Notes: generated by a model not told the origin, from the letters alone. A stretch of DNA of 33,869 bases from Roseovarius sp. (GCA_024636515.1 JAGXGX010000166.1:1-33869); one strand, 5' to 3'; positions 11,473 to 33,869 are shown, numbered from the stretch's first letter. Program-made: numbers and translations.

Positions 11473-11493
11473 GGGCCAGCATCCCTAAACGTT

Positions 11494-11528: not shown

Positions 11529-11622
11529 ATTGGAGTGCTAGCGAATAGCGTTTGTCCGCTATGCGGGGTAGAGCCGACATAGGACGAAAAGGTGCCCGCA
11601 GGACTCGTCCTTTGAGACATAG

Positions 11623-11934: not shown

Positions 11935-12152
11935 TAAAAATTTCTTCGCTTTCCCGATTTTTTCTCATTGATCTTCAAGCCTATGACTATTCCCCAGGTA
12001 AACAAACCCGCCATAATAGCCCCCGAAACAGCAGCGGGAATGCGAACTAAGGAGACCCATTCAGGCGAAGGGATAAATTGGATGCCGAACATTTTAGAGA
12101 ATAATGGAGCAACTCCATTTGGGAGCCAAAAATGAGCAACCATCTGATCCAA
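11934..12152 (-). CDS. hypothetical small membrane protein
   Basis: 72 aa with one predicted TM (IPAAVSGAIMAGLFTWGIVIGL) and a basic tail; AT-rich segment. Confidence 0.4.
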   Translation of the reverse strand: MDQMVAHFWLPNGVAPLFSKMFGIQFIPSPEWVSLVRIPAAVSGAIMAGLFTWGIVIGLKINEKKSGKRRNF

Positions 12153-12322
12153 AATGGCAGTCGCAAAAATGGTGTTTGCTTCTTTACGTCAGCATTCATG
12201 GTTTGATGCTTGCAACTACATTTCGGCCCTAATGTGGCAATCACATAGGAAATCTTGACTTGCGTGGCGATTGGTTGGCCTTCTTCGGACTCAAAGCCGC
12301 CTCCCAATTCTTGTAGGCGCCC

Positions 12323-12949
12323 CTACTTGAAATTCCGGCTATTCTTGATCTGATCCCACGCCCACATGACCTGTTGCAGCTGCTCTTCTTGGCTGCGGTC
12401 GCCGCCGTTGATGTCGGGGTGTAATACCTTGATGAGGGCGCGGTAGCTTTTGCGCACCTCGGCCTTGGTCATAGTGTCCTTGGCCTCCAGGATGTCGATG
12501 GCCTGACGCTCGGTGGGGGGCAGGCGCTTGCCGCCGCCGGCTTTGTCCTTGCCGGGGTTTCGCGTGGCATTGACGCCCAGCACCTGATGCGGATCCTCGA
12601 TTCCCAGCCGCGCCCATGCGCGCGCCTCGGGGTCTGTGAATGCCTTGGTCTGGCGCTCCCAAACCTTGTCTTTGGACATCTGCGCGTTGATCTCGGCCTC
12701 GGTGGTTCCGTCAAAGAAGTTCCACTTGAGATTGTACTCGCGCGCATGCTCTTGGCAGAACCAAAAGAATTCATCCAGCACGTCCGGTGCCTTGGGCGCG
12801 CGGTAGAGGCCGGGATTTTCGCAACCCTCATGCTCGCACGGGCGTTTTGATGTCTCGGACGCACCGGACATCCCGCGACGACCGCGGGGGTTTTTCTTCT
12901 TGGCCGACGAGACGGACATATCGAAGCCGAACGGATCGGATTTGGTCAT
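12323..12949 (-). CDS. J-domain (DnaJ-like) protein
   Basis: start MTKSDPFGFDMSVSSAKKK inside ORF 12323..13066; C-terminal J domain ...EVRKSYRALIKVLHPDINGGDRSQEEQLQQVMWAWDQIK with HPD. Confidence 0.9.
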   Translation of the reverse strand: MTKSDPFGFDMSVSSAKKKNPRGRRGMSGASETSKRPCEHEGCENPGLYRAPKAPDVLDEFFWFCQEHAREYNLKWNFFDGTTEAEINAQMSKDKVWERQTKAFTDPEARAWARLGIEDPHQVLGVNATRNPGKDKAGGGKRLPPTERQAIDILEAKDTMTKAEVRKSYRALIKVLHPDINGGDRSQEEQLQQVMWAWDQIKNSRNFK

Positions 12950-13025
12950 CGTGTACCCCTTTGCGAGTCGAAGCCAATACTCTAGTCTAAACGCGCGGAA
13001 GTTGAAGGGGGCGAAGGGCAGAAAG

Positions 13026-13283
13026 ATGGATAAGGCGGCAGAAATTCGCGCAGCACTAAAGCGCAACTTTGATGTGCAATCTCTTGAAGTTATTGACGAA
13101 AGCGAGGCGCATCGTGGTCATGCAGGATATCCAGAGGGCGGCCAGTCGCATTTCAGAGTGCGTATTCGTGCTGGCGCGCTGGCGCCAATGTCGCGCATTG
13201 CGCGCCACCGGGCGATCCACGCCGCCATCGGGCCGGAGCTAATCGCGCGGATACATGCGCTGGCGATCGAGGTAGATGTATGA
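13026..13283 (+). CDS. bolA: BolA family protein
   Basis: MDKAAEIRAALKRNFDVQSLEVIDESEAHRGHAGYPEGGQSHFRVRI...RHRAIHAAIG. Confidence 0.9.
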   Translation: MDKAAEIRAALKRNFDVQSLEVIDESEAHRGHAGYPEGGQSHFRVRIRAGALAPMSRIARHRAIHAAIGPELIARIHALAIEVDV

Positions 13284-13346
13284 CGCACGACGTTTTGCCA
13301 AAGAGATGACCGTGGCGCTGAGCCGGAGGAAAGTGGCGCGTCTGCG

Positions 13347-13802
13347 TTAATCTTTCTTTGGCACCTCTGGCGTCTCCGGCCCGTCCGGTGTGTCAGGTAC
13401 CACGTCTGGCTCTGGCTTGGGCGCCGGATCGACGCGTGCAGGCGTCATTGGCGTTACCACCGGCTCGCGGCGCTTTGATGTCTGCGCGGGCGTCCGGGCG
13501 TCCGGCGACACCGCCTCGGCCACGCCTTGCGCGACGGAGATCACCTCGTCTGCGGCGCTGTCCTCATCGGCCTTCATGCGGCGAAATATCATCAGCGTGC
13601 GGTATACCGTCTGGGTGGATGTCAGGCCCTGCCGCTCGTCCGAGGGCAGGATATCGCTGCGCAGATATTCCCATCCAGCGGCGGCTTGCTCATTTAGCAA
13701 GCCCTCGATGGTATTTGCGAAACGGGCCTCACCGGCCTTGATGCCCGGCGCCTTCGCGCCTTTGGCGGGGGCAGGGATCACCTTGTATTCGTAATTGGCC
13801 AT
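13347..13802 (-). CDS. DUF4177-like domain protein
   Basis: 151 aa; MANYEYKVIPAP...FANTIEGLLNEQAAAGWEYLRSDILPSDE, Pro-rich C-terminus. Confidence 0.75.
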   Translation of the reverse strand: MANYEYKVIPAPAKGAKAPGIKAGEARFANTIEGLLNEQAAAGWEYLRSDILPSDERQGLTSTQTVYRTLMIFRRMKADEDSAADEVISVAQGVAEAVSPDARTPAQTSKRREPVVTPMTPARVDPAPKPEPDVVPDTPDGPETPEVPKKD

Positions 13803-13876
13803 TGGGCTTACTGCCTCGTTTTTGTGTTGATCTGTTATAGCTTAGCCGCTTGTCGGCATGGTTGAAAGCGCGGGTG

Positions 13877-14368
13877 CTACCCCTTGTGGACGATACCCAT
13901 CGGCAGGCCGACGCCCTCGGGTCGGGGCAGTTTGTCATGGGCGGCCTGCAACGCTGCGACGCGGGCTGCGATATCAGCGGGCATGGGCGCAACGCGGGGG
14001 CCGGTCATGTCGATATGCAGCACCAGCGCCTCGGCGGTCGCGGCCAGCCAGCCATCTTCGTGATGTAGCTGTTGAAAACTGTGAAAGCGCTTCGCATCGT
14101 GATCCAGCAACTGAACCGAGCATTGAACGCGGTCGCCCTCGTGCAGCTCGCGCAGGTATCGCACGCGAAAATCGGCGACAAATGTGGTCATCTGCCGCGT
14201 GCGTGCATATTCCGCACCAAAGCCCATCAGATGGTAAACATCGTCGATGCCCTCATCGAACAGCACGTTGTAATAGGCCATGTTCAGATGGCCGTTAAAG
14301 TCGATCCACTCGGGCCGAACGACCATCCAGTCCGACAGGGCCGGGCCGTCTGCGAAAGGCTCCGTCAT
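13877..14368 (-). CDS. thioesterase family protein (hotdog fold)
   Basis: 163 aa; [31 protein letters not shown] hotdog signature; overlaps the gatB stop. Confidence 0.85.
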
Positions 14369-15876
14369 TCGGCCAGCTTTGCGGCGACGATTTTGTTCAC
14401 AGCTTTGGGGTTGGCCTTGCCGCCTGTCGCCTTCATCACCTGTCCGACGAACCAGCCTGCCAGCTTGGGATTGGCCTTGGCCTTTTCGACCTGTGCGGGA
14501 TTGCCAGCGATGATCTGGTCCACCGCTGCTTCAATCGCGCCGGTATCAGTGACCTGCTTCATGCCGCGATCTTCGACGATCTGCGCTGGGTCGCCGCCCT
14601 CACTATAGACGATCTCAAACAGATCCTTGGCGATTTTGCCGGAAATAGCGTCCGATGCGATCAGGTCCGCGATACCGCCCAGCTGCGCGGGGGATACGGG
14701 GCTGTCCGTGATGTCAGCACCCTCCTTCTTCAGGCGACCAAACAGCTCGTTTATAACCCAGTTGGCCACCAACTTGCCGTCGCGCCCCTCCGCAGCAGCC
14801 TCAAAATAAGCGGCATTGGCGAGCTCGGCGGTCAGGACGGATGCGTCATACTCGGACAGGCCAAAAACCTTGACGAAGCGCGCCTTTTTCGCATCTGGCA
14901 GCTCGGGCAGTGATGCCTCAATCTCGTCCACCCAAGCCTGCTCAATCTCTAGCGGCAGAAGGTCGGGATCGGGGAAATAGCGGTAGTCATGCGCCTCTTC
15001 TTTGGAGCGCATTGACCGCGTCTCGTTCTTGTCCGGATCATAGAGGCGCGTTTCCTGCACCACCTCGCCGCCCGCCTCGACAATCGCGATCTGGCGGCGC
15101 GCCTCGACGTCAATTGCGGCCTGAATAAAGCGCATAGAGTTCATGTTCTTGATCTCGCACCGGGTGCCGAGATGCGAGAAGTCCTGCGTTTCCTGATACT
15201 TCTCGTACTGGCCCGCACGGCAGATGCTGACATTGACGTCGGCGCGCAGATTGCCGTTCTGCATGTTGCCGTCGCAGGTACCCAGATAGCGCAGGATCTG
15301 GCGCATTTTCAGCACGTAGGCCGCCGCCTCTTCGGGGCCGCGGATGTCGGGCTTGCTGACGATTTCCATCAGGCACACGCCCGTACGGTTCAGATCAACA
15401 AAGGACATGTTAGGGTCCATGTCGTGGATGGATTTGCCGGCGTCCTGCTCCATATGAATGCGCTCGATCCGGACAAGCCGCGCGATGCCAGGCTCCATAT
15501 CCACCAGTACTTCGCCCTCGCCAACAATGGGATGGTAAAGCTGGCTGATCTGGTAGCCTTGCGGCAGGTCAGGGTAAAAGTAATTCTTGCGATCAAACGC
15601 TGACTTCAGATTGATCTGCGCCTTTAGGCCAAGGCCGGTGCGCACGGCCTGCTCGATGCAAAACTCATTGATGACAGGCAGCATCCCCGGCATCGCGGCG
15701 TCGACAAAGGCAACGTTTGAGTTCGGCTCGGACCCGAACAGGGTGGAGGCGCCCGAGAAAAGCTTGGACTTGGACGCGACCTGCGCGTGTACCTCCATGC
15801 CGATCACCAGTTCCCAGTCGTGCTTGGCCCCGGCGATGACCTTCGGCTTCGGCGTCTCGTATGTCAGGTCCAGCAT
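14365..15876 (-). CDS. gatB: Asp-tRNA(Asn)/Glu-tRNA(Gln) amidotransferase subunit B
   Basis: 503 aa; [30 protein letters not shown], full-length GatB with YqeY-like tail. Confidence 0.97.
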
Positions 15877-18162: not shown

Positions 18163-20727
18163 TCAACATTGCAGGATGCGCCCGACCATTTCAGCGGTGT
18201 CGCGGCTGAGGTTCGGCTGGCTGGCGATGCGATTCAGCTGCGCCTTGATCATTGACTGGCGCGCTGGGTCATAGCGCCGCCAAGTCTCGAACGCGGAACA
18301 CATGCGCGCCGTCGTCTGCGGGTTCAGCGGATCCAGCGCGATCAGCCAATCTGCCAGCAGCTCATATCCAGCGCCGCTGGCATAATGAAAGCCTGCCGGT
18401 GATCCGGCCAGCGCGCCCAGCGTCGCGCGAAAGCGATTAGGGTTTTTCATGGTGAAATCGGGATGCTGCGTCAGATTTGCGGCAGTCTCTGCCGCTAGGT
18501 CCGGCGCCGCGTAGGCGACCTGAAGGCTGAACCACTTGTCGATAACCAGCCTGTCGGCCTGCCATTGATCGTAAAACGCGCGGATTGCTGCATCGCCCTT
18601 GCCTGCTTGCAGAAGGCACGCCAGTGCCGCCAGATGCTGCGTCATATTATCAGCCGCGCCGTACTGCGCCTGCGCCGCAGCGCCGCCGTCTCGGCGCGTT
18701 ATCATCGCCAGCGCGGCATTGGCCAGCGCGCGTGCGCCCGATTGCTTGGCGCCCGGATCGTAGGGCTCCGTTACCTGATGCTTCGCATATAGTGTTCTGG
18801 CCACGGCCTCCAAAGTCTTGGCCCTTGCATCCTTGAGCGTCTCCAGACCGTCCCAGATCGACTGCGGATCGGGTGTGCCCCCGGCGTCAAAGATCGCCTG
18901 CGCCAGATCATCCTGACTGGGCAGGCTAAGCGCGAGCGCCCGAAAGGCGGGATCAAGGCTCTCGTCCTGCGCCACCGTCGCGATTGCCTGCAAATAGGCC
19001 GCGTCTGGCGCTGCGCCATGCCGGATCATCGCCAGAAGCCCCTCGCGCGCCAGCGCACGGCCCGCTTCCCACTTGTTGAAGGGGTCGGTGTCATGGGCCA
19101 AGAGGAACGCGCGCTCAGCGTCGTTTGTCTCGCGTTCAAGGATCACGGGCGCCGAAAAACCGCGCAGGATCGACGGGATGGGATGGGCCGAAAGACCTTT
19201 AAATTCAAAACTCTGTTCTGCTTTATTCATCTCAAGTAGCTGCGTTTCCACGACCTCATCGCCATTTTGCGATAGCAGGCCAACGGCGATCGGGATCACC
19301 CGCGGCGGTTTGTCTTGCTGCCCCGGTGTTGGCGGTGTTTCCTGTTTGAAATTAAGGGTATAAGTGCCGTCCTTGAACTCATCTGTTACCGACAGGCGCG
19401 GCGTGCCGGCATCCTCGTACCAGCGTTTGAACTGCGCCAGATCGCGGCCTGTCACATCCTCAAACACCTTCAGCCAATCCTCGATTGTGCAGGCCTGCCC
19501 ATCATGTCGCTGGAAATAAAGCGTTAGCGCCTTGGACCATGCGTCATCCCCCACCAGAGTTTTCAGCATCCCGATCAGCTCGGCGCCCTTTTCGTAGACG
19601 GTGGCAGTGTAGAAATTGTTGATCTCGACAAAGCTGCTGGGCCGCACCGGATGCGCCAGTGGACCGTTATCCTCGCGGAACTGGCGCGCACGCAGGGCGA
19701 TCACGTCCTCGATCCGCTTGACCGGCGCGCTGCGCATGTCTGAGGTGAATTGCGCATCGCGAAAGACGGTCAGCCCCTCCTTGAGGCACAGCTGAAACCA
19801 GTCGCGGCAAGTGATCCGGTTGCCTGTCCAGTTGTGAAAATACTCGTGCGCGATTATCGCCTCAATCCGCTCAAAATTGCCGTCGGTTGAGGTTTCTGGT
19901 GAGGCCAGGACGCAGGAGGAGTTGAAGATATTCAAGCCCTTATTCTCCATCGCGCCCATGTTGAAATCGTCGACGGCGACGATATTGAACAGATCCAGAT
20001 CGTATTCGCGGCCATACTCCGTCTCGTCCCAGCGCATCGAATCCTTAAGCGCCTGCATCCCAAAGGCGCATTTGCCCTCATCGCCGGGGCGCACCCAGAT
20101 ATTAAGTGCCACTTCCCGGCCAGACATTGTGGTAAAGCTGCCCGGGTGCGCCACCAGCTGGCCAGCCACGAGCGCAAAGAGGTACGCCGGTTTCGGCCAC
20201 GGATCATGCCATTCGGCAAATCCGTCGTCCATTTCACCGGGGTTGCCGTTGGAAAGCATCACAGGCTCGGCGCCCTCAATGCGCACGGTAAAGACGGCCA
20301 TCACGTCTGGGCGGTCGGGATAGTAGGTGATCTTGCGAAACCCTTCGGCCTCACACTGTGTGCAATACATGCCGCTGGACATGTATAGCCCCTCCAGCGC
20401 GGTGTTGGTCGAGGGGCTGATCTCAACCTCGGCCTCCCACATGAATTCGCCGTCTGGCACAGCGCAGGTCAGGCCCGTTTCCGTCACATCCGGCGCCACC
20501 TCGACTCCGTCGATACAAGCGCGGATCAGCGTCATTTTCTCGCCGTCCAGCGCGAATTCGCGGCTGCTGGCGTCGGGATTAGGTGTGAAAGTGATGCGGC
20601 TTAGGACGCGCGTGCGTGTCGGATCGAGGCGAAAGGTCAGATGCACATCGCGCACCAGCCAGTTAGGCGGGGTGTAATCGGACAGATGAATTGGCTCTAC
20701 GGCGGCGTTCGGTGCGGGATGCGACAT
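18163..20727 (-). CDS. pepN: aminopeptidase N (M1)
   Basis: 854 aa; GAMENKGLNIFN and HEYFHNWTGNRITCRDWFQLCLKEGLT. Confidence 0.97.
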   Translation of the reverse strand: MSHPAPNAAVEPIHLSDYTPPNWLVRDVHLTFRLDPTRTRVLSRITFTPNPDASSREFALDGEKMTLIRACIDGVEVAPDVTETGLTCAVPDGEFMWEAEVEISPSTNTALEGLYMSSGMYCTQCEAEGFRKITYYPDRPDVMAVFTVRIEGAEPVMLSNGNPGEMDDGFAEWHDPWPKPAYLFALVAGQLVAHPGSFTTMSGREVALNIWVRPGDEGKCAFGMQALKDSMRWDETEYGREYDLDLFNIVAVDDFNMGAMENKGLNIFNSSCVLASPETSTDGNFERIEAIIAHEYFHNWTGNRITCRDWFQLCLKEGLTVFRDAQFTSDMRSAPVKRIEDVIALRARQFREDNGPLAHPVRPSSFVEINNFYTATVYEKGAELIGMLKTLVGDDAWSKALTLYFQRHDGQACTIEDWLKVFEDVTGRDLAQFKRWYEDAGTPRLSVTDEFKDGTYTLNFKQETPPTPGQQDKPPRVIPIAVGLLSQNGDEVVETQLLEMNKAEQSFEFKGLSAHPIPSILRGFSAPVILERETNDAERAFLLAHDTDPFNKWEAGRALAREGLLAMIRHGAAPDAAYLQAIATVAQDESLDPAFRALALSLPSQDDLAQAIFDAGGTPDPQSIWDGLETLKDARAKTLEAVARTLYAKHQVTEPYDPGAKQSGARALANAALAMITRRDGGAAAQAQYGAADNMTQHLAALACLLQAGKGDAAIRAFYDQWQADRLVIDKWFSLQVAYAAPDLAAETAANLTQHPDFTMKNPNRFRATLGALAGSPAGFHYASGAGYELLADWLIALDPLNPQTTARMCSAFETWRRYDPARQSMIKAQLNRIASQPNLSRDTAEMVGRILQC

Positions 20728-22317: not shown

Positions 22318-22743
22318 GTGCGCGTTGACATGAAACCGGATCTGCAACCCGGTCCGGATCCAAGTGCGCCGCCCGAAGCGGGTACAGTGATGCGTGCGCT
22401 CTGGGTTTGTGTGGGCAGCGTGTCGCTAGCGCTTGGCGCGGTTGGGGTGATCCTGCCGCTGCTGCCGACGACACCGTTTGTTCTGCTTGCGGCATTCGCC
22501 TTTGCGCGGGGGTCGCCGCGGCTGCGGGGGTGGCTGACAGGCAATCGGATCTTTGGCCCTATCATCGCCGACTGGGAGGCACGCGGCGTTGTCGCGCCGC
22601 GCTACAAGGCTATGGCCTGCACCGCTATGTGTGCTGTTTTGCTAGCATCGGTGCTGGGCGGATTGGCTTGGCGGTTGATCGCAGTGCAGGCCGTCTTCAT
22701 GTTTTGCGCGGCGGCCTACGTGCTAAGCCGACCCTCCCGATAG
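22318..22743 (+). CDS. YbaN/DUF454 family inner membrane protein
   Basis: LGAVGVILPLLPTTPFVLLAAFAFARGSPRLRGWLTGNRIFGPIIADWEARGVV. Confidence 0.9.
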   Translation: MRVDMKPDLQPGPDPSAPPEAGTVMRALWVCVGSVSLALGAVGVILPLLPTTPFVLLAAFAFARGSPRLRGWLTGNRIFGPIIADWEARGVVAPRYKAMACTAMCAVLLASVLGGLAWRLIAVQAVFMFCAAAYVLSRPSR

Positions 22744-22845
22744 AGCGAAATAGGATTTGGTAAAGCAAAAGATCGGAAAACCCTCATTTGCCGCAAGGCC
22801 CTCTGGCGCGTAGCGTTGCGCAACAGTAAAATCTGAGGGTGAGGC

Positions 22846-23026
22846 ATGGCGCAGCGAATATTCATTGCGGGCGAATGGACGGTATCGGTCGCAGATGATG
22901 TTCTTGATTGCATAGATCCATCGACCGGCGCGGCGCTGGAGGCTGGATGCCTTCCTTGAGCCGAAACAAAAAACACGGTGGAAGGTCGGCGGCGGCGTTG
23001 GCTGGTATGACATGAAAACTGGCTAG
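22846..23026 (+). pseudogene. internally deleted aldehyde dehydrogenase remnant (N- and C-terminal ends only)
   Basis: 22846 frame: MAQRIFIAGEWTVSVADDVLDCIDPSTGAALEAG (ALDH N-terminus-like); +1 frame: LDAFLEPKQKTRWKVGGGVGWYDMKTG* (resembles ALDH C-termini of the type ...EPKQ...GWY). Confidence 0.6.
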
Positions 23027-23064
23027 ATCGCACCGCGCACCCATTCCCGAGAGAGAGACTATAC

Positions 23065-25161
23065 ATGCCCAAAGATACTAAGTCTGCCCGCGACCCGCGC
23101 TATGATATCCTTTTTGAGCCGGTCAAGATCGGGCCGGTGACGGCCAAGAACCGCTTTTACCAAGTGCCCCACTGCAACGGCGGGGGCTATCGCGACCCTT
23201 CGGCGGCGGCGCAGATGCGCAATATCAAGGCGCAAGGCGGCTGGGGTGTAATCTTTACCGAGCAGGTTGAGATGCATCATACGTCTGAAATCACGCCGTT
23301 TATCGAGCTAAGGCTTTGGGAGGATAAGGATATTCCCGGCCTAGCGCGTATGGCCGAGGCGATGAAAACGGATGGCGCGCTGGCAGGGATCGAACTGGCC
23401 TATAGCGGCGTCAACGGTGGCAATCTTTATACCAAAGAGGTGCCGATGGCGCCCTCCACCTCGCCGATTCTGACTTTCTACAAGGACCCGGTCAGTGCCC
23501 GCGCGATGGACAAGGAGGACATTCGCGATTTGCGCCGTTGGCACCGCAATGCGTGCCTGCGCGCGAAAACCGCGGGCTATGACATCATCGAGTTATATGG
23601 CGCGCACGGCTTTGGCGTGATCCAGCATTTTCTGTCGCCGCTGACCAATCAGCGCAGCGATGAGTACGGCGGCAGCTTGGAGAATCGCGCGCGTCTTTTT
23701 CGCGAGTTGATCAGCGAGTGCAAGGATGCGGTTGGCGACAGCATTGCTATTTCCGTGCGCCTGTCGCTGGAGGAAATTGGCGGGTTGGAGAACCCCGAAG
23801 TGCGCGACATGATCTCGATGAACGCCGATCTGCCGGACCTTTGGGATCTGGGCCATGGTACGTGGGAGGACTGCTCGGGGCCGTCCCGCTTTACCGAAGA
23901 AGGCGCGCAAGAGCCGCTGGTGCGCGGCATCAAGGAGCTGACGGACAAGCCTGTGGTCGGTGTCGGCCGCTTTACCTCGCCCGATGCGATGGTCAGCCAG
24001 ATCAAGCGCGGCGTGCTGGATTTCATCGGGGCCGCGCGCCCGTCAATTGCCGATCCGTTCATCCCGCGCAAGATTGACGAGGGCCGCGTCGAGGATATTC
24101 GCGAGTGCATCGGCTGCAACATCTGCGTGACGGGCGATATGACCATGTCGATCAGTCGCTGCACGCAGAACCCCACCTTTATGGAGGAGTGGCGCAAGGG
24201 CTGGCATCCCGAAGAGATCGACGCAAAGGGCGTGAGCGAGACGGTCCTTATCATTGGCTCGGGTCCCGCTGGTCTTGAGGCCGCGCGCGCCGCTGGCGAA
24301 CGCGGTTATCAGGTTGCGCTGGCTGAGGCAGGGACCGAACTGGGCGGGCGCGTGGCGCTGGAATGCAAATTGCCCGGTCTGGCGACGTGGGGCCGCGTGC
24401 GGGACTACCGCCAGCACCAGATTTCTCAGATGCCGAATGTCGAGGTCTACTACGACTCGCTGCTTTCGGCGCAGGATGTTCTCGATTTTGGCTTTGATAA
24501 TGTAGCGATTGCGACTGGCTCCACTTGGCGCCGCAACGGCGTGGCGCGGTACAACCTGCTGCCTATCCCCATGGACGCCGCGATGCCCGTTTTTACCCCA
24601 GATGATCTGATGGCGGGTACGCTGCCGGAGGGTGGTCATGTCGTGCTATATGACGACGATCACTATTACATGGGCGGCGTTTTGGCCGAGCTTTTGGTGC
24701 AAAAGGGGCTGGAGGTGACGCTTGTCACTCCTGCGAACCTCGTCAGTGAATGGACGCTGAACACGCTAGAGCAGCATCGCATCCAGGCCCGCATGATCGA
24801 GCTAGGCGTGCATATCGTCACCGCGCAGGCGGTCACGGCTGTGACGGGGCAGGGCGCGACACTTAGCTGCGCCTTTACCGGGCGCGCGAGTAACGTGGAC
24901 TGCGACGCTGTCGTCATGGTCACATGCCGGATGCCCAATGACGATCTGTGGCAGGCGCTCAAGGCCCGCGAGGATGAGTGGGAGGGCGCAGGCATCAAAA
25001 AGATTGAGCGTATTGGCGACGCCAACGCGCCCGCGCCGATTGCTTGGGCTACCTATGCCGGTCACCGCTTTGCCCGCGAGTTGGACGTAACCCGCGAGCA
25101 GGACGAATTGCCATTCCGCCGCGAAGTGACCGAACTGGCCCCGAAGGAGGCGTTTCGATGA
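23065..25161 (+). CDS. trimethylamine/dimethylamine dehydrogenase-type NADH:flavin oxidoreductase (iron-sulfur flavoprotein)
   Basis: 698 aa; RDPRYDILFEPVKIGPVTAKNRFYQVPHCN (Cys37 = 6-S-cysteinyl-FMN position), CIGCNICV-N11-CTQN [4Fe-4S], GWHPEE, second dinucleotide-binding domain LIIGSGPAGLEAARA. Confidence 0.93.
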   Translation: MPKDTKSARDPRYDILFEPVKIGPVTAKNRFYQVPHCNGGGYRDPSAAAQMRNIKAQGGWGVIFTEQVEMHHTSEITPFIELRLWEDKDIPGLARMAEAMKTDGALAGIELAYSGVNGGNLYTKEVPMAPSTSPILTFYKDPVSARAMDKEDIRDLRRWHRNACLRAKTAGYDIIELYGAHGFGVIQHFLSPLTNQRSDEYGGSLENRARLFRELISECKDAVGDSIAISVRLSLEEIGGLENPEVRDMISMNADLPDLWDLGHGTWEDCSGPSRFTEEGAQEPLVRGIKELTDKPVVGVGRFTSPDAMVSQIKRGVLDFIGAARPSIADPFIPRKIDEGRVEDIRECIGCNICVTGDMTMSISRCTQNPTFMEEWRKGWHPEEIDAKGVSETVLIIGSGPAGLEAARAAGERGYQVALAEAGTELGGRVALECKLPGLATWGRVRDYRQHQISQMPNVEVYYDSLLSAQDVLDFGFDNVAIATGSTWRRNGVARYNLLPIPMDAAMPVFTPDDLMAGTLPEGGHVVLYDDDHYYMGGVLAELLVQKGLEVTLVTPANLVSEWTLNTLEQHRIQARMIELGVHIVTAQAVTAVTGQGATLSCAFTGRASNVDCDAVVMVTCRMPNDDLWQALKAREDEWEGAGIKKIERIGDANAPAPIAWATYAGHRFARELDVTREQDELPFRREVTELAPKEAFR

Positions 25162-26282
25162 GCGTCGCGCAGGCCGCGGCCCTGCCCATCGCAGAGCGCG
25201 CGCGCGCCGCGGTAGAGCTGGATAATGTCGAGAAGACCTACGGGACCGGCAAATCAGCGGTCAAGGCGCTGAAGGGCGTCAGCTTCGACATTGCAGACAA
25301 TGAGTTTTTTACGCTGCTTGGCCCCTCGGGGTGTGGCAAGACCACGCTGCTGCGCGCGCTGGCATGGTTTGAGAGTGTGACGGCCGGCACTATTCGCCTC
25401 TTTGGCGAGGATATCGTCGATGTGCCGACCTACAAACGCTCGATCAACACCGTGTTTCAGCATTACTCGCTGTTTCCGCATATGAGTGTTGCGGAAAACG
25501 TTGCCTATGGCCTGAAGCGGCTGAAGAAGTCGAAATCCGAGATTGAGGCGACCGTCGCTGATATGCTGGAACTGGTCAAAATGACCGATTTTGCGGGCCG
25601 CCTCCCGGCGCAGTTATCGGGCGGGCAGCAACAGCGCGTGGCACTCGCCCGTGCGCTGGCGCCGCATCCTAAGGTGCTGCTACTCGACGAACCCCTGTCG
25701 GCGCTCGACCTCAAACTGCGCCAGTCGATGCGGCAGGAATTGAAGCAGATTCAGGCACGTACGGGCATCACCTTTATCTTTGTCACGCACGACCAGGACG
25801 AGGCGTTGTCGATGTCCGACCGCGTCGCTGTCATGTCGGCGGGCTACGTGCAGCAGGTCGGCACACCGAATGAGATCTACGAGCATCCGGCCAACCGCTT
25901 TGTCGCGGGCTTTGTCGGGGATGCAAATTTCATCGACGCGCAGATCACGTCGCCCGTTGGGGACACCGTCACTTGCCGCACCAAAGGCGGGGCAGTATTG
26001 CAGGCAGACGCGCGTAACCTGCTAGAGGGCCAGCGCGACGTGACGTTATTCCTGCGACCCGAAAAGGTGAAGCTGGCAAAGGTCGGCGCCGCGACAGTTG
26101 ATGGGGAAATTACGGACATTCAGTACCTCGGCAACTCGACAATGATGCAGATCGACATCGGCGAGGCGGAGCCTCTGGTGGTGACCGAGCCGCTGGGCGA
26201 GGTCGATCAGCGCCTGCGCCAAGTCGGCGATAGGGTGGGCGTCATCCTCAGCCCTAGCGCCCTACAAATACTGGTGGAATGA
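25158..26282 (+). CDS. ABC transporter ATP-binding protein, spermidine/putrescine (PotA) type
   Basis: MSVAQAAALPIAERA start, ATGA overlap with upstream gene; Walker A GPSGCGKTT, LSGGQQQRVALARAL, LLLDEPLSALD, TOBE domain. Confidence 0.94.
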   Translation: MSVAQAAALPIAERARAAVELDNVEKTYGTGKSAVKALKGVSFDIADNEFFTLLGPSGCGKTTLLRALAWFESVTAGTIRLFGEDIVDVPTYKRSINTVFQHYSLFPHMSVAENVAYGLKRLKKSKSEIEATVADMLELVKMTDFAGRLPAQLSGGQQQRVALARALAPHPKVLLLDEPLSALDLKLRQSMRQELKQIQARTGITFIFVTHDQDEALSMSDRVAVMSAGYVQQVGTPNEIYEHPANRFVAGFVGDANFIDAQITSPVGDTVTCRTKGGAVLQADARNLLEGQRDVTLFLRPEKVKLAKVGAATVDGEITDIQYLGNSTMMQIDIGEAEPLVVTEPLGEVDQRLRQVGDRVGVILSPSALQILVE

Positions 26283-27187
26283 TGGCCAACCTGCCCAGCA
26301 ATCCCGCGCTTCGGCGCACATTATCGCTGGCGCCCGCCCTGGGCATCATCGGTATCTTTATGCTGATACCGGTCGGCATCATCGCGGTATTCTCATTCCT
26401 TGAGGCTAAATCATTCGGCGGCGTCGTCTGGAGCTTTTCGACTGACGCCTATGTGCAGCTCCTGTATGAGCGGGCGCTGGACGACAGCCTGATACTCTCG
26501 CCGGGCTACCTGATTATCATTTGGCGGTCATTCTTGTTGGCCGGGATCGCGATGCTGTGCTGTCTCGTCGTTGGTTTTCCGGTGGCCTATTTTATCTCGC
26601 GCCAGCCGCTACAGCACCGAAATATGTGGATTTTGCTGATCACCATTCCGTTCTGGACCAACCAACTGGTGCGCACGTTTGCGTGGATCATAATTCTGGG
26701 GCGCAACGGCATCATCGAGGCGCCGTTTCACTGGGTCGGCATCCTTGGTAGCGACGACACGCTGGGCCTGATGTACAGTAATTTCGCCATCGCGGTGGGC
26801 CTGACCTACACGTTCATCCCGCTGATGGTGTTGCCGATTTATGCGAGCCTTGAGAAGCTGGATTTTACCTTGGTCGAGGCGGCCGCAGATCTCTACTCCT
26901 CCAAGTGGGAGGCCTTCTCTAAGGTCATCATACCCTTGTCCAAGCCGGGCATTATCGCAGGATGCCTTTTGGTGTTCATCCCGTCGCTGGGCGCGTTTAT
27001 TCAACCTGACCTGTTGGGCGGGGGCAAGAACATGATGCTGGGCACGCTGGTCCAATTCCAGTTCTCGACCGCGCGAAACTGGCCCTTTGGCGCAGCTATT
27101 GCAATGATCCTGCTGGCGGCTGTCGTTATTTTCCTGATGATCTATGCCCGCGCCGCACGCGGCCAGCAAAAGATGGAGCTGCACTGA
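26279..27187 (+). CDS. ABC transporter permease, PotB/PotH type
   Basis: 302 aa multi-TM; LLITIPFWTNQLVRTFAWIIILGRNGIIE; EAAADLYSSKWEAFSKVIIPLSKPGI EAA loop. Confidence 0.94.
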   Translation: MMANLPSNPALRRTLSLAPALGIIGIFMLIPVGIIAVFSFLEAKSFGGVVWSFSTDAYVQLLYERALDDSLILSPGYLIIIWRSFLLAGIAMLCCLVVGFPVAYFISRQPLQHRNMWILLITIPFWTNQLVRTFAWIIILGRNGIIEAPFHWVGILGSDDTLGLMYSNFAIAVGLTYTFIPLMVLPIYASLEKLDFTLVEAAADLYSSKWEAFSKVIIPLSKPGIIAGCLLVFIPSLGAFIQPDLLGGGKNMMLGTLVQFQFSTARNWPFGAAIAMILLAAVVIFLMIYARAARGQQKMELH

Positions 27188-28017
27188 TGGCCGCCATTGA
27201 ACATAGCAAACCCAAAAAGCGACGCGCTTTTGGCGAGGTGCCCGGCCTCGGCGCGCTGGCGATTGCCTTCATGATGTTCCTCTACCTGCCGATCCTCGTG
27301 CTGGTGGTCTATTCGTTCAATGCGGGCAATATCGTGATGGTCTGGACGGGCTTCAGCACCGACTGGTATGCACGCGCGTTCGCCAACGAGGATATTCGCA
27401 AGGCCGCGATCAATTCGCTGGTGGTGGCGACAAGCGCGACGGCAATTGCCACCACCTGCGCGACGCTTGCCGCCCTCGCATTGGCGCGTGGCGGCAGTTT
27501 CAAGGGCAAGGGCGCGACTGTCGGCGTCATCACCCTGCCGCTGATGGTGCCTGAAATTGTGACTGCGGTGGCGATGTTGGTATTTTTCTCCAACATCGGG
27601 CTTAACTTCGGTTTGGGCAACGTGATCCTTGCGCATGTGACGTTTTGCATCCCCTTCGCGTTCATGCCGATCCGCGCGCGCCTCGACGGTATGGACACCA
27701 CGTTGGAGCAGGCCTCGCGTGACCTTTATGCCTCCGACTGGGAGACGTTTCGGCTGGTTACGCTACCGCAGCTAATGCCCGGCGTACTGGCCGGTGCGAT
27801 GCTCAGCTTTGTCATATCCATGGACGATTTCATCATCACGCTGATGGTGGCAGGGGCCGGCGACACAACGCTGCCCGTTTATATCTACAGCATGATCCGG
27901 CAGGGCATCACGCCCGAAATCAATGCCGTTTCCTCCATCTTGCTGCTGTTTTCTATCGTGCTGGTGACCGCCTACTGGTTCGTCACCCGCACCAAGCCGG
28001 ATGGCAAAAACCGCTAA
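27187..28017 (+). CDS. ABC transporter permease, PotC/PotI type
   Basis: 276 aa multi-TM; EQASRDLYASDWETFRLVTLPQLMPGVLAGAMLSFVISMDDFIITLMVAG. Confidence 0.94.
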   Translation: MAAIEHSKPKKRRAFGEVPGLGALAIAFMMFLYLPILVLVVYSFNAGNIVMVWTGFSTDWYARAFANEDIRKAAINSLVVATSATAIATTCATLAALALARGGSFKGKGATVGVITLPLMVPEIVTAVAMLVFFSNIGLNFGLGNVILAHVTFCIPFAFMPIRARLDGMDTTLEQASRDLYASDWETFRLVTLPQLMPGVLAGAMLSFVISMDDFIITLMVAGAGDTTLPVYIYSMIRQGITPEINAVSSILLLFSIVLVTAYWFVTRTKPDGKNR

Positions 28018-28050
28018 ATAACCAAGAAACCAAAACAGGGAGTCACGACA

Positions 28051-29091
28051 ATGAAAACCATGACATTCTTTGGCCTGATGGCCGGAAGCAGCCTGATCGC
28101 GGGTGCCGCAATGGCCGAAGGGACACTGAACCTATACAACTGGACCGATTACACCTCCCCCGAGATGATCGACAAATTCGAGGCCGAAACCGGCATCGAC
28201 GTGGTCCTCGACACCTACGATTCAAACGAGACGCTGCTGGCAAAAATGCAAGCGGGCGCAACCGGCTACGACATTATCGTGCCAAGCCATAACTTCGTGC
28301 CGATATTTATCTCCGAAGGCTTAGTCCAGAAGGTGGACGCAACCCAGATGGAGAATTTTGCCAACGTGCAGGACCGTTGGAAGAACCCTGAATGGGACCC
28401 CGACCAGCAATATACCGTGCCGTTCCACTGGGGATCGGCCTCGGTGTCCTACCGTCCCGATCTATATGGCAAGGAACTGACCAGCTACGGCGAATATTTC
28501 GAGCCGTCTGAAAACGTGAAGGGCCGCATCGGCGTGTTCAAGACGCCTGAAGAGATCGTGAACCTCGCGCATCTTTATCTGGGTCAGGACTTCTGCAACG
28601 AGAACCCCGAGGAAATGCAAAAGGTGCAAGATCTGCTGGTCGCGCAGAAACCCGACGTTGTCGCCTATAGCTCGGAGGGAATGAACGACCGGCTGATCAA
28701 CGGTGACACGATCATCACATCGCACTGGAACGGCTATTCGTTCAAGGGCCGCAAACTGGCCGAGGAAGCGGGCAAAGAGATCACCTATGCCTATCCCGAA
28801 GAGGGCGTTATCGGCTGGTCTGACAGCTTGATGATCCCGGTCGGTGCCGAGAACGTGGAAAACGCTAAGATTTTCATGAATTTCATCATGGACCCCAAGA
28901 ATATGGGGATGCAGTCGAACTTCGCAGGCTACGGCGGCCCGATTGAGGGTCAGCGCGAATTCATGAACGCCGATCTACGCGACGCGCCCGAGATCAACGT
29001 GCCTGAGGATGCCAAGATGATCTTTTCCTTCGCATGCAACGAGAAGTCGCAAAAGCTGATCGACCGCGTCTGGACCAACGTCCTGCGCTAA
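28051..29091 (+). CDS. polyamine-type periplasmic substrate-binding protein (PotD/PotF family)
   Basis: signal peptide; GTLNLYNWTDYTSPEMIDKFEAETGIDVVLDTYDSNETLLAKMQAGATGYDIIVPS. Confidence 0.94.
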   Translation: MKTMTFFGLMAGSSLIAGAAMAEGTLNLYNWTDYTSPEMIDKFEAETGIDVVLDTYDSNETLLAKMQAGATGYDIIVPSHNFVPIFISEGLVQKVDATQMENFANVQDRWKNPEWDPDQQYTVPFHWGSASVSYRPDLYGKELTSYGEYFEPSENVKGRIGVFKTPEEIVNLAHLYLGQDFCNENPEEMQKVQDLLVAQKPDVVAYSSEGMNDRLINGDTIITSHWNGYSFKGRKLAEEAGKEITYAYPEEGVIGWSDSLMIPVGAENVENAKIFMNFIMDPKNMGMQSNFAGYGGPIEGQREFMNADLRDAPEINVPEDAKMIFSFACNEKSQKLIDRVWTNVLR

Positions 29092-29097
29092 GGCTTG

Positions 29098-29125
29098 CGG
29101 CCTGCGCGCCGAGGTGCGCAGGCCG
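29098..29125 (+). other. intercistronic hairpin after the binding-protein gene
   Basis: CGGCCTGCGC-N8-GCGCAGGCCG, perfect 10-bp arms, no T tract. Confidence 0.8.
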
Positions 29126-29145
29126 ACTAATAAGGAGTTAAGACA

Positions 29146-30246
29146 ATGAAAACGGGCTTTGTCTGTCATGAGAAATACATGTGGCATGATACCGGCCACG
29201 CGGGGATTTTCATTCCTGCGGTGGGCCATGTGCAGCCGTCCGAGCATGCCGAAAGCCCCGAAAGTAAGCGGCGCATCCGCAACCTGATGGAAGTGACGGG
29301 GCTGCTGGAAAAGCTGGTGCAGATCGTGCCGCGACCCGCCACGCGCGACGAGGTGCTGCGCTATCACACACCGGACTACATTGATCGGCTGGCGGCGCTC
29401 AGCGCCGAGCGGGGCGGGGATGCGGGCATGACGACACCCTTCGCGGCGGGCGGGTATGACATCGCGCTGCTGTCGGCGGGCGGCGTTCTGGCAGCCGCCG
29501 AGGCGGTGGTCGATGGCACCGTCGACAATGCCTACGCGCTGGTGCGCCCGCCCGGCCATCACGCCGAGGCACATATGGGCAAGGGGTTTTGCCTGCTGGC
29601 CAATGGCGTTCTGGCTATCCGACATGTGCAGGCGACGCGCGGCATTGGCCGTGTCGCTGTGCTGGATTACGACGTGCATCACGGCAATAGCGCTGAACAT
29701 GCGTTTTACGACGACCCTAATGTGCTGACTATTTCAATCCATCAGGACAACTGTTTTCCGCCTGATTCAGGTGCGGCTGGCGACATCGGGCGCGGCAAGG
29801 GCGAGGGCTATAACATCAACGTCCCGCTGCCGCCCGGTTCGGGCCGCGAGGCCTATCGCGCCACGTTCGAGCGTGTGGTTGTCCCCGCCATCACCGCGTT
29901 CAGGCCGGACTTCATCGTCGTTCCCTCAGGCTTTGACGCGGGCGGGTTCGATCCACTGGGCCGCATGATGCTGTCCTCAGGCAGCTATCGCGAGATTGCA
30001 GCGACGATGAAGGCGCTGGCGGCGGACCTATGCGGGGGCCGCCTGCTGTTCACCCACGAAGGCGGATATGCTGCCGTGCATGTGCCGTTCTGCGCCCATG
30101 CCGTTATTGAGGAGTTGTGCGATTCGGGCGCCCGCATCGACGACCCATTTGCACCCATTCTGGATGGGATGGGTGGCCACCAGCTTTACCCGCACCAAGA
30201 GGCGGTGATCGACGCGGCCGCTGAACTGGCAAGCAAAATCAAATAA
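29146..30246 (+). CDS. histone deacetylase-like amidohydrolase / acetylpolyamine amidohydrolase family
   Basis: 366 aa; ALVRPPGHHAEAHMGKGFCLLAN, VLDYDVHHGNSAEHAFYDDPNVLTISIHQDN, VPSGFDAGGFDPLGRM. Confidence 0.93.
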   Translation: MKTGFVCHEKYMWHDTGHAGIFIPAVGHVQPSEHAESPESKRRIRNLMEVTGLLEKLVQIVPRPATRDEVLRYHTPDYIDRLAALSAERGGDAGMTTPFAAGGYDIALLSAGGVLAAAEAVVDGTVDNAYALVRPPGHHAEAHMGKGFCLLANGVLAIRHVQATRGIGRVAVLDYDVHHGNSAEHAFYDDPNVLTISIHQDNCFPPDSGAAGDIGRGKGEGYNINVPLPPGSGREAYRATFERVVVPAITAFRPDFIVVPSGFDAGGFDPLGRMMLSSGSYREIAATMKALAADLCGGRLLFTHEGGYAAVHVPFCAHAVIEELCDSGARIDDPFAPILDGMGGHQLYPHQEAVIDAAAELASKIK

Positions 30247-30265
30247 CTGCGCAAGGAACTTCATC

Positions 30266-31405
30266 ATGAACATTAAGATCAAGGGCTCCATGCTGCCCAG
30301 TGGTGAGCGCGGCAAAGTAACCGCCGATCCGCTAAATTCGCCGACGCTGCCCTCGCGCTATTACACTGATGAGAGCATATATCGGCAGGAGATGACCCAT
30401 ATCCACCGCAAGGCGTGGACCTATATCGGCCATGTCGGCGACGTACCTGAAACGGGGTATTACTTCACCGATACGGTCGGCGAGCAGCCCATCGTTGTCG
30501 TGCGCGGCGGCGATGACGTAGTTCGGTGTTTTTACAACGTCTGCCCTCACCGTGGTCACCAACTGCTCGAGGGCGCGGGCAAGCTAAAGGCCAAGGGCAT
30601 CAGCTGCCCCTACCATGCATGGATGTTCCACCTAGACGGGCGCCTTGGGGTGGCGCGACTGACAGAGCACGTCAAGGATTTCGACAAATCGCAATTCGGG
30701 CTCAAGGAGATCCGCATCGCCTTTGCCGCCGGTCTGATCTTTGCCACGCTGGACCCGGACGCGAATGATTTTGCCGATGAGATGGAAGGCTTCGTCGAGA
30801 ATATCGAGCATTTCCTACCAGCCGCCAAGGATTTCATCGTCGCCGAGCGTCTGCATTACGACATCAAGGCGAACTGGAAAACGGTCGTCGACAACTTCTC
30901 GGAGGCGTACCACATCCCGATCTGCCATCCGCAGCTATCCAAGGTGTTGGAGCAGGAGATGGAGGAGTTGAAGGCAGAGCGGCGCTGGACGTTCAACCGC
31001 TTCAAGAGCAAAGAGGGTTTCCCCGGCTTTGAGCTGACCCCCGGATCGCCCTATTACGCCTGGCAGGCGTGGCCGCATTTCTGCGCGCTCAGCCTGCCGG
31101 GATCGAACAACCTGATCGTGCTGCGCATGGCGCCCGACGGCGTTGGTCGCTGCGCCGAGCGGGTCGATATCTATACGCCGAAGGGCGAGGAGGATAACCC
31201 CAAGCTGGGCGCGGTACGTGATCTGTTCATGCATATGTTCAACATCGAGGATATTGCCATCGTGGAAAGCGTGCAGCGCGGGCTGGCGTCGATGGGCTAC
31301 GATCAGGGCCGCTATATCTGCGACAAAGAGGATAGCTGGTTCACCGAATACCAGCTGCATTGGCTGCATATGCAGGTGCTGGAGGCGTTGGGCGACGCGG
31401 CGTAG
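30266..31405 (+). CDS. aromatic-ring-hydroxylating/quaternary amine-type Rieske oxygenase alpha subunit
   Basis: 379 aa; Rieske CPHRGHQ...SCPYHAW (30542-30616) and mononuclear iron motif DNFSEAYHIPICH (30890-30928). Confidence 0.93.
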   Translation: MNIKIKGSMLPSGERGKVTADPLNSPTLPSRYYTDESIYRQEMTHIHRKAWTYIGHVGDVPETGYYFTDTVGEQPIVVVRGGDDVVRCFYNVCPHRGHQLLEGAGKLKAKGISCPYHAWMFHLDGRLGVARLTEHVKDFDKSQFGLKEIRIAFAAGLIFATLDPDANDFADEMEGFVENIEHFLPAAKDFIVAERLHYDIKANWKTVVDNFSEAYHIPICHPQLSKVLEQEMEELKAERRWTFNRFKSKEGFPGFELTPGSPYYAWQAWPHFCALSLPGSNNLIVLRMAPDGVGRCAERVDIYTPKGEEDNPKLGAVRDLFMHMFNIEDIAIVESVQRGLASMGYDQGRYICDKEDSWFTEYQLHWLHMQVLEALGDAA

Positions 31406-31420
31406 GGCGCGATTGCGCCC
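31405..31420 (+). other. short hairpin directly after the Rieske gene stop
   Basis: GGGCGC-GATT-GCGCCC. Confidence 0.55.
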
Positions 31421-31535
31421 GCAGGCAGACATACCTCAGAAAATCCTCTGGCCCTCCTAGGAAACGGATATTTTTGCTGATGCAAAGGCACTGCTACGCT
31501 CGTCCCAACAGATAGCCAGCCAAGGGGATAACCAC

Positions 31536-33056
31536 ATGCTGAGAACCGGCGACGAGTACAGGGATTCGATCCGCGACAACCGCGAAGTTTATATGAACGG
31601 CGAGCGGGTCAAGGACGTGACCGCGCATCCCATGTTCAAGCCGCTGGTTGATGTGCGCGCGCGCATCTACGACATGGCGCACGACCCCGAAACTGCTGAT
31701 GTCATGACCACCCATGATGGCACCGAATTGAACGCTATCGGCAATGCGCTGCCCTACACTCAGGACGATTGGTGGGCCAAGCGCCGCTCGACCGATGCCG
31801 TGATGGAGGATATCGGCGGTGTCGTTACCCGCGTGGGAGACGAGACCGTGGGCGAGATGTGGTCGCTCTATGACGGGCAGGACATGCTGAACGAGGTCGA
31901 TCCGCAGTTCTCCAAGAATATCAAGACGCACATCCACAAAGTGCTGAAGGAAGACCCCTTTCACGTGTCGGCCAATACCGACCCCAAAGGTGATCGCAGC
32001 CTAGCCCCGCAGGACCAAGACCCCGACATGCTGCTGCATGTGGTCAAGGAAACCGACGCTGGCCTTATCGTGCGCGGCGCCAAGTATGAGACGGCGGCAG
32101 CCTATGCCAACCAAGCGTTTACCAAGCCGACAATCGCCAACTGGGGCAATGCCGCGCTGAGTGACTATGCCGTTGGCTTTATCTGCGATCTCGGCTCGCC
32201 CGGTTTGAAATTCCTGTGCCGTGGCGGCTTTGCCAGCACGCGCGCTGATGATCGGGACTATCCGCTCGCGGCGCGCTTTGACGAGGTCGACACCATCGTC
32301 ATCTTTGATAACGCGTTGATCCCATGGGAAAACGTGCTGTTCTATCGCCACACCAAGGCGGCAGCGTTTATCCGGTCGACGCTGCACCGCTATTCGGCCT
32401 TCGCCTTCGTGCAGCGCACGTTGAAGCAGGCGGACCAGATGATCGGCTCGGCGCTGTTCAACGTGCGGCAGACCGGCCTCGACAACCAACCCGCCGTTCA
32501 GGAAAAGCTGGCCGATCTGGCGATCTGGCGCGAGGGAATCAATGCCCATCTGACCGCGTCTATCGCGCTGGCCGAACGCTCGCCCGCTGGCCTGATGATG
32601 CCGAACCAGTCGCTATTGATGACGGGCCGTTGCCACGCGCTGAACAACCTTGCCCCGATGATGCACATCGCCCGCGAGCTGTGCGGCGGCCAGATCTGTG
32701 TCACGCCCAACGCCGCCACATTCGACGCGCCCGACACCAAGCCGTGGATGGATAAATACTACTCCATCAACGACAATTGGGTCGCCGAGGACCGCCGCAA
32801 GCTGTTGGCCTACGCCCGCGACCTGCTAAATTCCGACTACGCCGGACACCGCCTGACATTCCAGCTGTTCGCGCAATCACCGCCCTTCGCGCAGCGCGCC
32901 GCCGTTTACCGCAATTTCGATTGGGACGGGCCGCTTAACTTTGTCAAAAAGGGCGCGCACTTGTCGGACAGCGTGATGGCGGGAATTGAGGAAAAGACCG
33001 GAGACGGCGCCGTCGCGCAATATTACAATGAGACGCTGCTGAAAGCAGCCGAATGA
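31536..33056 (+). CDS. HpaB-like (4-hydroxyphenylacetate 3-hydroxylase / 4-hydroxybutyryl-CoA dehydratase family) FAD-dependent monooxygenase
   Basis: 506 aa; MLRTGDEYRDSIRDNREVYMNGERVKDVTAHPMFKPLVD N-terminus; acyl-CoA dehydrogenase-like fold; AREWCGG-like region IARELCGGQICVTPN. Confidence 0.88.
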   Translation: MLRTGDEYRDSIRDNREVYMNGERVKDVTAHPMFKPLVDVRARIYDMAHDPETADVMTTHDGTELNAIGNALPYTQDDWWAKRRSTDAVMEDIGGVVTRVGDETVGEMWSLYDGQDMLNEVDPQFSKNIKTHIHKVLKEDPFHVSANTDPKGDRSLAPQDQDPDMLLHVVKETDAGLIVRGAKYETAAAYANQAFTKPTIANWGNAALSDYAVGFICDLGSPGLKFLCRGGFASTRADDRDYPLAARFDEVDTIVIFDNALIPWENVLFYRHTKAAAFIRSTLHRYSAFAFVQRTLKQADQMIGSALFNVRQTGLDNQPAVQEKLADLAIWREGINAHLTASIALAERSPAGLMMPNQSLLMTGRCHALNNLAPMMHIARELCGGQICVTPNAATFDAPDTKPWMDKYYSINDNWVAEDRRKLLAYARDLLNSDYAGHRLTFQLFAQSPPFAQRAAVYRNFDWDGPLNFVKKGAHLSDSVMAGIEEKTGDGAVAQYYNETLLKAAE

Positions 33057-33075
33057 TCGCCGGGGAGGCAACATC

Positions 33076-33869
33076 ATGGGACATGAACCACGTGCTATCG
33101 ACGAGTTGATGAAAACTGCCGCGCTGCCATTCGAGGCGGCGCGCGCCATGCCGCCTTCGGTCTACACGTCCGAAGAGTTTCTGGAGCAGGAGCAAGAGCA
33201 TATATTCGCGAAAGAATGGTTTTGTGTCGGGCGCGCCAGCACGATGCAAGAGCCCGGCGATTATGTCACCATTGAGCTTGCGGGTCAGCCCATTGCTGTC
33301 ATTCGCGGGCGCGATGGCGCATTGCGAGCGATGTCCAATGTATGCTTGCACCGCATGTCGACCCTGCTGGAGGGGCGCGGCAACACGCGCTCAATTGTGT
33401 GCCCCTATCATGCCTGGACCTACAATCTGGACGGTAGCCTGCGCGGCGCGCCCGAGATGGACCGCAACGATGCGTTCTGCAAAGCAGACTACAAGCTGGG
33501 CGATATCCGCTGCGAGGAATGGCTGGGCTGGGTTTATGTCACGCTTGATCCGGGCACTCCGTCCGTCGCGCAGCAGCTTAGCCCTCTGGCCGACCTGATC
33601 GGCGATTACGGCATGGAAAACTATGTCGAGACCTTCAACGAGGTCCATGTGTGGGACACGAACTGGAAGGTGTTGGCTGAGAACTACATGGAAAGCTACC
33701 ATTTGCCGGTCTGCCACAAGGGGACCGTCGGCCCGTTTACCGATCTGGCGAATGTCGATTGCCCGCCCGGCCACCCGCATTTCAACATTCACTGGTTCAC
33801 CAAAGAGGCAGAACTGGCTATCGGCAACGCGCATCCGGACAACACCCGCCTGACTGGCGTGATGCGCAA
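33076..33869 (+). CDS. second Rieske oxygenase alpha subunit, truncated by window end
   Basis: Open frame from ATG 33076 to window edge: MGHEPRAIDELMKTAALPFEAARAMPPSVYTSEEFLEQEQEHIFAKEWFCVGRA...; CLHRMSTLLEGRGNTRSIVCPYHAW (33343-33411); ENYMESYHLPVCHK. Confidence 0.93.
   Translation, partial: MGHEPRAIDELMKTAALPFEAARAMPPSVYTSEEFLEQEQEHIFAKEWFCVGRASTMQEPGDYVTIELAGQPIAVIRGRDGALRAMSNVCLHRMSTLLEGRGNTRSIVCPYHAWTYNLDGSLRGAPEMDRNDAFCKADYKLGDIRCEEWLGWVYVTLDPGTPSVAQQLSPLADLIGDYGMENYVETFNEVHVWDTNWKVLAENYMESYHLPVCHKGTVGPFTDLANVDCPPGHPHFNIHWFTKEAELAIGNAHPDNTRLTGVMR

Follow-up and report, generated by a model that had tools for sequence, protein, structure and literature searches.

Histamine catabolism has been described as the hin pathway of Pseudomonas putida U and PAO1, in which HinF is an FAD monooxygenase (EC 1.14.13.5), HinL an enamine deaminase, HinH an amidase and HinG an enzyme of EC 3.5.1.8, with hinFLHG forming the contiguous genes PA5393-PA5390 in PAO1 (PMC8231116, PMC6467879). 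Histamine can also be oxidised by histamine dehydrogenases, which accept agmatine as well, although at a lower rate, and for the Nocardioides simplex enzyme (3K30) Gln65, Ile74, Phe77, Glu79, Asn115, Tyr181, Trp267 and Asp358 have been proposed to bind histamine (PMC10180351).

The window analysed here is a stretch of 33,869 nt from Roseovarius sp. (GCA_024636515.1 JAGXGX010000166.1:1-33869), and positions 23065-33869 carry nine plus-strand genes. We consider it likely that they belong to an alphaproteobacterial operon for the catabolism of histamine (imidazole-4-acetate) that is a variant of the hin pathway, a reading that rests on homology, active-site residues, gene order and an exchange of HinF for HpaB plus a flavin reductase, with the chemical steps deduced from these. 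Both systems have a LysR regulator and the logic of converting imidazole-4-acetate to aspartate in common. In contrast to hin (hinABCD, hinFLHG, hinIJ and hinK), the cluster lacks HinF and has an HpaB-like oxygenase with a flavin reductase, a histamine dehydrogenase replaces the aminotransferase HinC, PotABCD replaces the permease HinA, and Rieske and HDAC-like genes are additional. The original prediction of an undescribed pathway is not supported, as most steps match the hin pathway and the core largely corresponds to a characterised operon; the HpaB/flavin reductase pair and the Rieske enzymes are without counterpart there. The same logic of a flavin monooxygenase with RutF-like reductase, amide hydrolysis and a Rid-family deaminase is found in the Rut pyrimidine pathway, but the window uses an HpaB-family oxygenase instead of the luciferase-like RutA, and the hydrolases differ. 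A Rut-like uracil pathway was rejected, since there is no RutA or RutB.

All gene types that had been predicted were recovered in the predicted order and on the plus strand (Table 1). Most genes overlap by 1-4 nt or are closely spaced, with consecutive distances of -4, -4, -1, 33, 54, 19, 130 and 19 nt, and the GC content at third codon positions is uniform (0.73-0.78 in all nine genes). Farther upstream lies a Peptidase C26 gene (21384-22178) with a weak match to the gamma-glutamyl-GABA hydrolase PuuD (156 bits, cut-off 266), which may or may not relate to the cluster, and on the minus strand an 854-aa ORF (18163-20727; HEYFHNWTGNRITC stretch) that resembles aminopeptidase N.

Table 1. Features of the predicted histamine-catabolic cluster in the window.
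Feature	Position	Strand	Basis or remark
DUF454 gene	22318-22743		Precedes the cluster, which begins at 23065
Intergenic region, 321 nt; likely (candidate) operon promoter region	22744..23064	+	Sole long gap ahead of the run of short gaps
Histamine dehydrogenase homologue, 698 aa, covalent-FMN + 4Fe-4S TMADH superfamily	23065..25161	+	Similarity and site residues
PotA-like ABC transporter ATPase, 374 aa	25158..26282	+	TIGR01187 potA above cut-off
PotB-like permease, 302 aa	26279..27187	+	Top NCBIfam match PotB, under cut-off
PotC-like permease, 276 aa	27187..28017	+	Top NCBIfam match PotC, under cut-off
PotD/PotF-like substrate-binding protein, 346 aa	28051..29091	+	PotF/PotD models 174/171 bits, cut-offs 636/582
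Histone-deacetylase-like zinc amidohydrolase, 366 aa	29146..30246	+	PF00850, 284 bits
Rieske oxygenase A, CntA-like, 379 aa	30266..31405	+	225.8 bits to carnitine monooxygenase CntA
HpaB-like two-component flavin monooxygenase, oxygenase component, 506 aa	31536..33056	+	PF11794 + PF03241
Rieske oxygenase B, 5' part	33076..33869	+	PF00355; CntA 149 bits; complete 383-aa copy on C19 (L004:127-1278)

The last gene, encoding Rieske B, is broken off by the contig end at 33869, and the cluster probably continues on another contig of the same MAG (C19), the first 920 bp of which overlap window positions 32950-33869 without gaps and with 95.2% identity. Onward from there, C19 carries the complete Rieske B gene, RidA, DUF1028, an ArgE-like hydrolase, LysR, a flavin reductase-LysR fusion and PhyH. 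The identity of 95.2% suggests a strain mixture or strain variation in the MAG, and the join proposed from this overlap (C210-C19) is supported by the isolate Roseovarius litorisediminis, which keeps exactly this gene order from HpaB and Rieske B through RidA, DUF1028, ArgE and LysR to the flavin reductase (L056). Past the contig end, an oxygenase reductase, a flavin reductase, an aldehyde dehydrogenase and a regulator had been expected; the flavin reductase and the regulator are indeed present on C19, while no aldehyde dehydrogenase was seen and no CntB-like reductase was seen beside the window's Rieske genes. Neither the aminotransferase HinC nor the aldehyde dehydrogenase HinD was detected in the window or on C19. 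Other genes on C19 (locus L004) encode a 576-aa protein with a C-terminal B12-binding domain (7657-9387) and a polar amino acid-type ABC transporter together with a creatininase-family protein (11235-14765).

The first protein of the cluster resembles the histamine dehydrogenases of Rhizobium sp. (6DE6, 1088.9 bits) and Nocardioides simplex (3K30, 871.6 bits) over its full length, followed by 6L6J (695.6 bits), which we take to be an enzyme of the nicotine-pathway type, and by TMADH (516.6 bits); the best histamine dehydrogenase score is more than twice the TMADH score. The FMN-linking cysteine and the four cluster cysteines are present, with VPHC and CIGCNIC...C aligning with 6DE6, 3K30 and TMADH, and all six residues of the proposed histamine site that were checked (Gln65/67, Ile74, Phe77, Glu79, Trp267 and Asp358) are conserved both in the window protein and in its close group. 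At the positions of the aromatic bowl of TMADH, which presumably consists of Tyr60, Trp264 and Trp355, the protein has Gln, Trp and Asp, with Gln and Asp as in both histamine dehydrogenases. By similarity and substrate-site residues, it is a predicted histamine dehydrogenase that shares the cofactor cysteines and histamine-site residues of 6DE6 and 3K30. An identity as TMADH or DMADH, as originally proposed, was rejected in view of the lower score and the altered aromatic bowl, and with these site residues the proposed N-methylated amine does not fit as the substrate of the flavoprotein. The import of a cationic amine, a dehydrogenative C-N cleavage and a heteroaromatic moiety, all part of the same prediction, are supported.

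The PotABCD-like proteins probably import histamine, with the binding protein as one component of the importer. As this protein scores below the cut-offs of the PotF and PotD models, its ligand is possibly a different one, and PotABCD genes were found together with histamine dehydrogenase in the loci L177, L178, L179 and L190. The HDAC-like protein has the zinc-site motifs DVHHG, GFDAGG and EGGY, and among solved structures those of bacterial HDAC-like amidohydrolases (9gkw, 9glb, 5g0x, 1zz0) come closest to it, which points to an N-acyl-amine deacylase; that it deacylates N-acylhistamine is a guess. Such genes were seen again in SAR116-type loci and in L066, L081, L088, L178 and L179.

The HpaB-like oxygenase is only distantly related to proteins in the PDB (at most 156 bits). 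With the phenol hydroxylases HpaB, TftD and HadA (2YYG, 3HWC, 6JHM) it shares the fold family, the equivalent of Arg100 and a dedicated HpaC/RutF-like flavin reductase, but this reductase carries a fused LysR ligand-binding domain, and of Arg100, Tyr104 and His142, which we take to be the residues that contact the phenol hydroxyl in Thermus HpaB, only Arg100 is kept, whereas Tyr104 is replaced by Glu103 and His142 by Ser145. Arg99, Glu103 and Ser145 do not vary among the 95 clade members, and as two phenol-contacting residues are thereby replaced throughout these 95 sequences, a phenolic substrate is unlikely. A protonated imidazole would go well with the fixed Glu, and the enzyme may well be an imidazole-ring hydroxylase. 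A scan for this clade found 80 loci, with identities of 73-87%, which are spread over Rhodobacterales, SAR116, rhizobia, Rhodospirillales and Acetobacteraceae as well as a few gammaproteobacteria.

The original expectation that the genes would be conserved beyond one genome is borne out by HpaB-clade loci in Rhodobacterales and other groups. Among 94 such loci, DUF1028 was found near HpaB in 61, LysR in 60, flavin reductase in 48, RidA in 48, ArgE-like hydrolase in 27, histamine dehydrogenase in 19, Rieske B-like oxygenase in 18, aldehyde dehydrogenase in 17 and HDAC-like genes in 11, with RidA undercounted by the ORF filter and many loci ending at contig ends. According to these neighbour counts, the gene set is far beyond chance. 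Histamine dehydrogenase also served as an independent starting point in 385 alphaproteobacterial genomes. Of the loci reached in this way, L177 contains HinF, RidA, DUF1028, aldehyde dehydrogenase, LysR, histamine dehydrogenase, ArgE, an AguB-like gene and PotABCD; L179 contains PotABCD, HDAC-like, AguB-like, ArgE, histamine dehydrogenase, DUF1028, RidA, flavin reductase and HpaB, and no HinF was found in its genome. L045 and L075 have the layout HpaB-Rieske B-[X]-RidA-DUF1028-ALDH-LysR-histamine dehydrogenase-PotAB in common (RidA of L045 inferred from a 678-nt gap), and position X is occupied by a flavin reductase in one and by HinF in the other. That HinF and flavin reductase/HpaB are thus swapped in otherwise similar gene sets is the chief reason why the HpaB pair appears to do the job of HinF. 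HpaB is not a simple HinF replacement everywhere, and strict mutual exclusion was rejected, as 10 of 28 HpaB-carrying genomes contain both; HinF occurs in 29 of 299 sampled Pseudomonadota. In Flavimaricola marinus (L012), a PLP-dependent amino acid decarboxylase-like gene (18191-19528) lies between histamine dehydrogenase and PotA, and its product could make the amine in situ. In the SAR116-type loci L020, L021, L029, L034, L037 and L039, HpaB is surrounded by PotABCD, amidase, histamine dehydrogenase, HDAC-like and AguB-like genes, and RidA and DUF1028 were not seen there.

How do the genes on C19 relate to the hin genes? A close DUF1028 homologue was found in 104 of 150 Pseudomonas genomes, and six of the 12 DUF1028 loci that were read (L134-L137, L139, L142) encode a 436-460-aa protein, verified as FAD-type oxidoreductase for L135, followed by RidA, DUF1028 and ArgE, with the latter three in the order found on C19. 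Identities of these Pseudomonas proteins to those of C19 are 57-59% for RidA, about 54% for DUF1028 and 44-47% for ArgE. The named control genomes, in contrast to these, yielded no Pseudomonas reference for DUF1028. On C19, RidA would thus correspond to HinL and the ArgE-like hydrolase to HinG by type, and DUF1028 to HinH by position; the Pseudomonas loci were equated with hinFLHG, and HinH with DUF1028, by order and protein type and not via the P. putida U sequence. HinF itself has no match above 33 bits in the window genome, which is 86.6% complete. That HinF might be HpaB-like was rejected, as HpaB occurs in one of 150 Pseudomonas genomes, compared to 104 with DUF1028, and the HinF-type locus encodes a different FAD protein. 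In the two Pseudomonas genomes that encode HpaB, histamine dehydrogenase is missing, but HinC/HinD-like aminotransferase and aldehyde dehydrogenase genes lie at the locus. In three other Pseudomonas loci (L131, L132, L133), DUF1028 and ArgE have PhyH, HisJ-like and class II aldolase-like genes as neighbours, no HinF-type gene was seen, and another pathway seems to use the same hydrolase module.

In the proposed pathway, histamine would be imported by PotABCD and possibly also released from N-acyl forms by the HDAC-like enzyme, and the histamine dehydrogenase would oxidatively deaminate it to imidazole-4-acetaldehyde. An aldehyde dehydrogenase, whose gene is present in clusters of relatives, would form imidazole-4-acetate, the ring of which would be hydroxylated by the HpaB-like oxygenase with the flavin reductase from C19 instead of HinF. 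DUF1028 (HinH), RidA (HinL) and the ArgE-like hydrolase (HinG) would then accomplish ring opening and aspartate release, and Rieske B, possibly together with Rieske A and PhyH, would probably demethylate N-methylated relatives into this route. Points against this pathway are that histamine dehydrogenase is within reach in only 19 of the 94 HpaB loci, the coexistence of HpaB and HinF, and the aldehyde dehydrogenase not seen in the window's own cluster. The positional match of DUF1028 to HinH, the deduced C210-C19 join and the acceptance of agmatine by characterised histamine dehydrogenases count against it as well.

The Rieske enzymes share with CntA and the glycine betaine monooxygenase GbcA the Rieske [2Fe-2S] and catalytic domains and a bridging Glu. 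This Glu, in an N-x-x-E-x-x-H motif in Rieske A and B and present in all 24 aligned Rieske rows, stands in place of Asp, which we take to be a feature of CntA/GbcA oxygenases. The GbcA model gives 165 bits for Rieske A and 134 bits for the truncated Rieske B protein (cut-off 670). Rieske B falls into a supported group with 15 members from HpaB loci, the majority of which are encoded immediately downstream of HpaB; it is probably an oxidative N-demethylase. Rieske A was absent near HpaB in every other locus examined among the 94 and was thus rejected as a conserved cluster member. N-demethylation of methylated imidazoles, considered here as a hypothesis only, would account for both the recurrent CntA-like Rieske genes and the PhyH genes in a nearby slot.

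Which other substrates could such a cluster serve? HpaB and Rieske B might form a module for N-methylated imidazoles (methylhistamine, methylimidazoleacetate or marine betaines such as zooanemonin), in which Rieske or PhyH enzymes demethylate, HpaB hydroxylates the ring that HinF refuses, and the RidA, DUF1028 and ArgE steps are shared, but this is rather doubtful. The module would explain why the Rieske B clade directly follows HpaB in many loci, why PhyH occupies the position after RidA in L042, L081 and L088, where other loci have the Rieske gene, and why CntA is the nearest solved relative of Rieske B, and the 10 genomes with both HpaB and HinF fit differing substrates. Many HpaB loci, however, are devoid of Rieske and PhyH genes, and in L179, L012, L019 and the window histamine dehydrogenase adjoins HpaB and no HinF was found, for which reason HpaB seems to be needed there for plain imidazoleacetate.

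It is improbable that the operon serves agmatine, putrescine or acetylated polyamines, with deacetylation by the HDAC-like enzyme, oxidation by the dehydrogenase and an AguB-like step in relatives. PotABCD, an AguB above cut-off in one SAR116-type locus and the acceptance of agmatine by histamine dehydrogenases agree with such a function, but it offers no role for HpaB, flavin reductase, RidA, DUF1028 and the ArgE-like hydrolase, and the rate of the Rhizobium enzyme, the closest relative of the window protein, with agmatine is about 10% of that with histamine. A pyridinium betaine, an aromatic amino acid betaine or another quaternary N-methyl amine degraded via a TMADH-type demethylase, suggested initially in view of two CntA-like Rieske enzymes and an HpaB-family enzyme, is very hard to reconcile with the data: Tyr60 and Trp355 of TMADH correspond to Gln and Asp, Tyr104 and His142 of HpaB to Glu and Ser in the entire clade, and the RidA/DUF1028/ArgE set fits the histamine pathway. 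Catabolism of homarine, a marine N-methyl heteroaromatic compound, was rejected, as literature searches gave no matching operon and the dehydrogenase pointed elsewhere.

Histamine catabolism thus being the preferred reading, the cluster indicates that marine and soil alphaproteobacteria possess a histamine-to-aspartate route unlike that of Pseudomonas in transport, deamination and ring attack. No description of the HpaB form was found in a literature search lacking most subscription journals, and its novelty is therefore provisional. The analysis offers a testable function for this conserved HpaB clade, for which 4-hydroxyphenylacetate hydroxylases are the closest named families, and likewise for the neighbouring Rieske and DUF1028 genes. 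More tentatively, an undescribed branch of imidazole catabolism might be widespread in alphaproteobacteria, in which an imidazole-attacking HpaB-family monooxygenase acts together with Rieske/PhyH N-demethylases and methylated imidazoles are mineralised as well; if so, methylhistamines, methylimidazole-acetates and zooanemonin-type betaines would be among these compounds, and the extra oxygenases may let the bacterium use methylated imidazole compounds as well.
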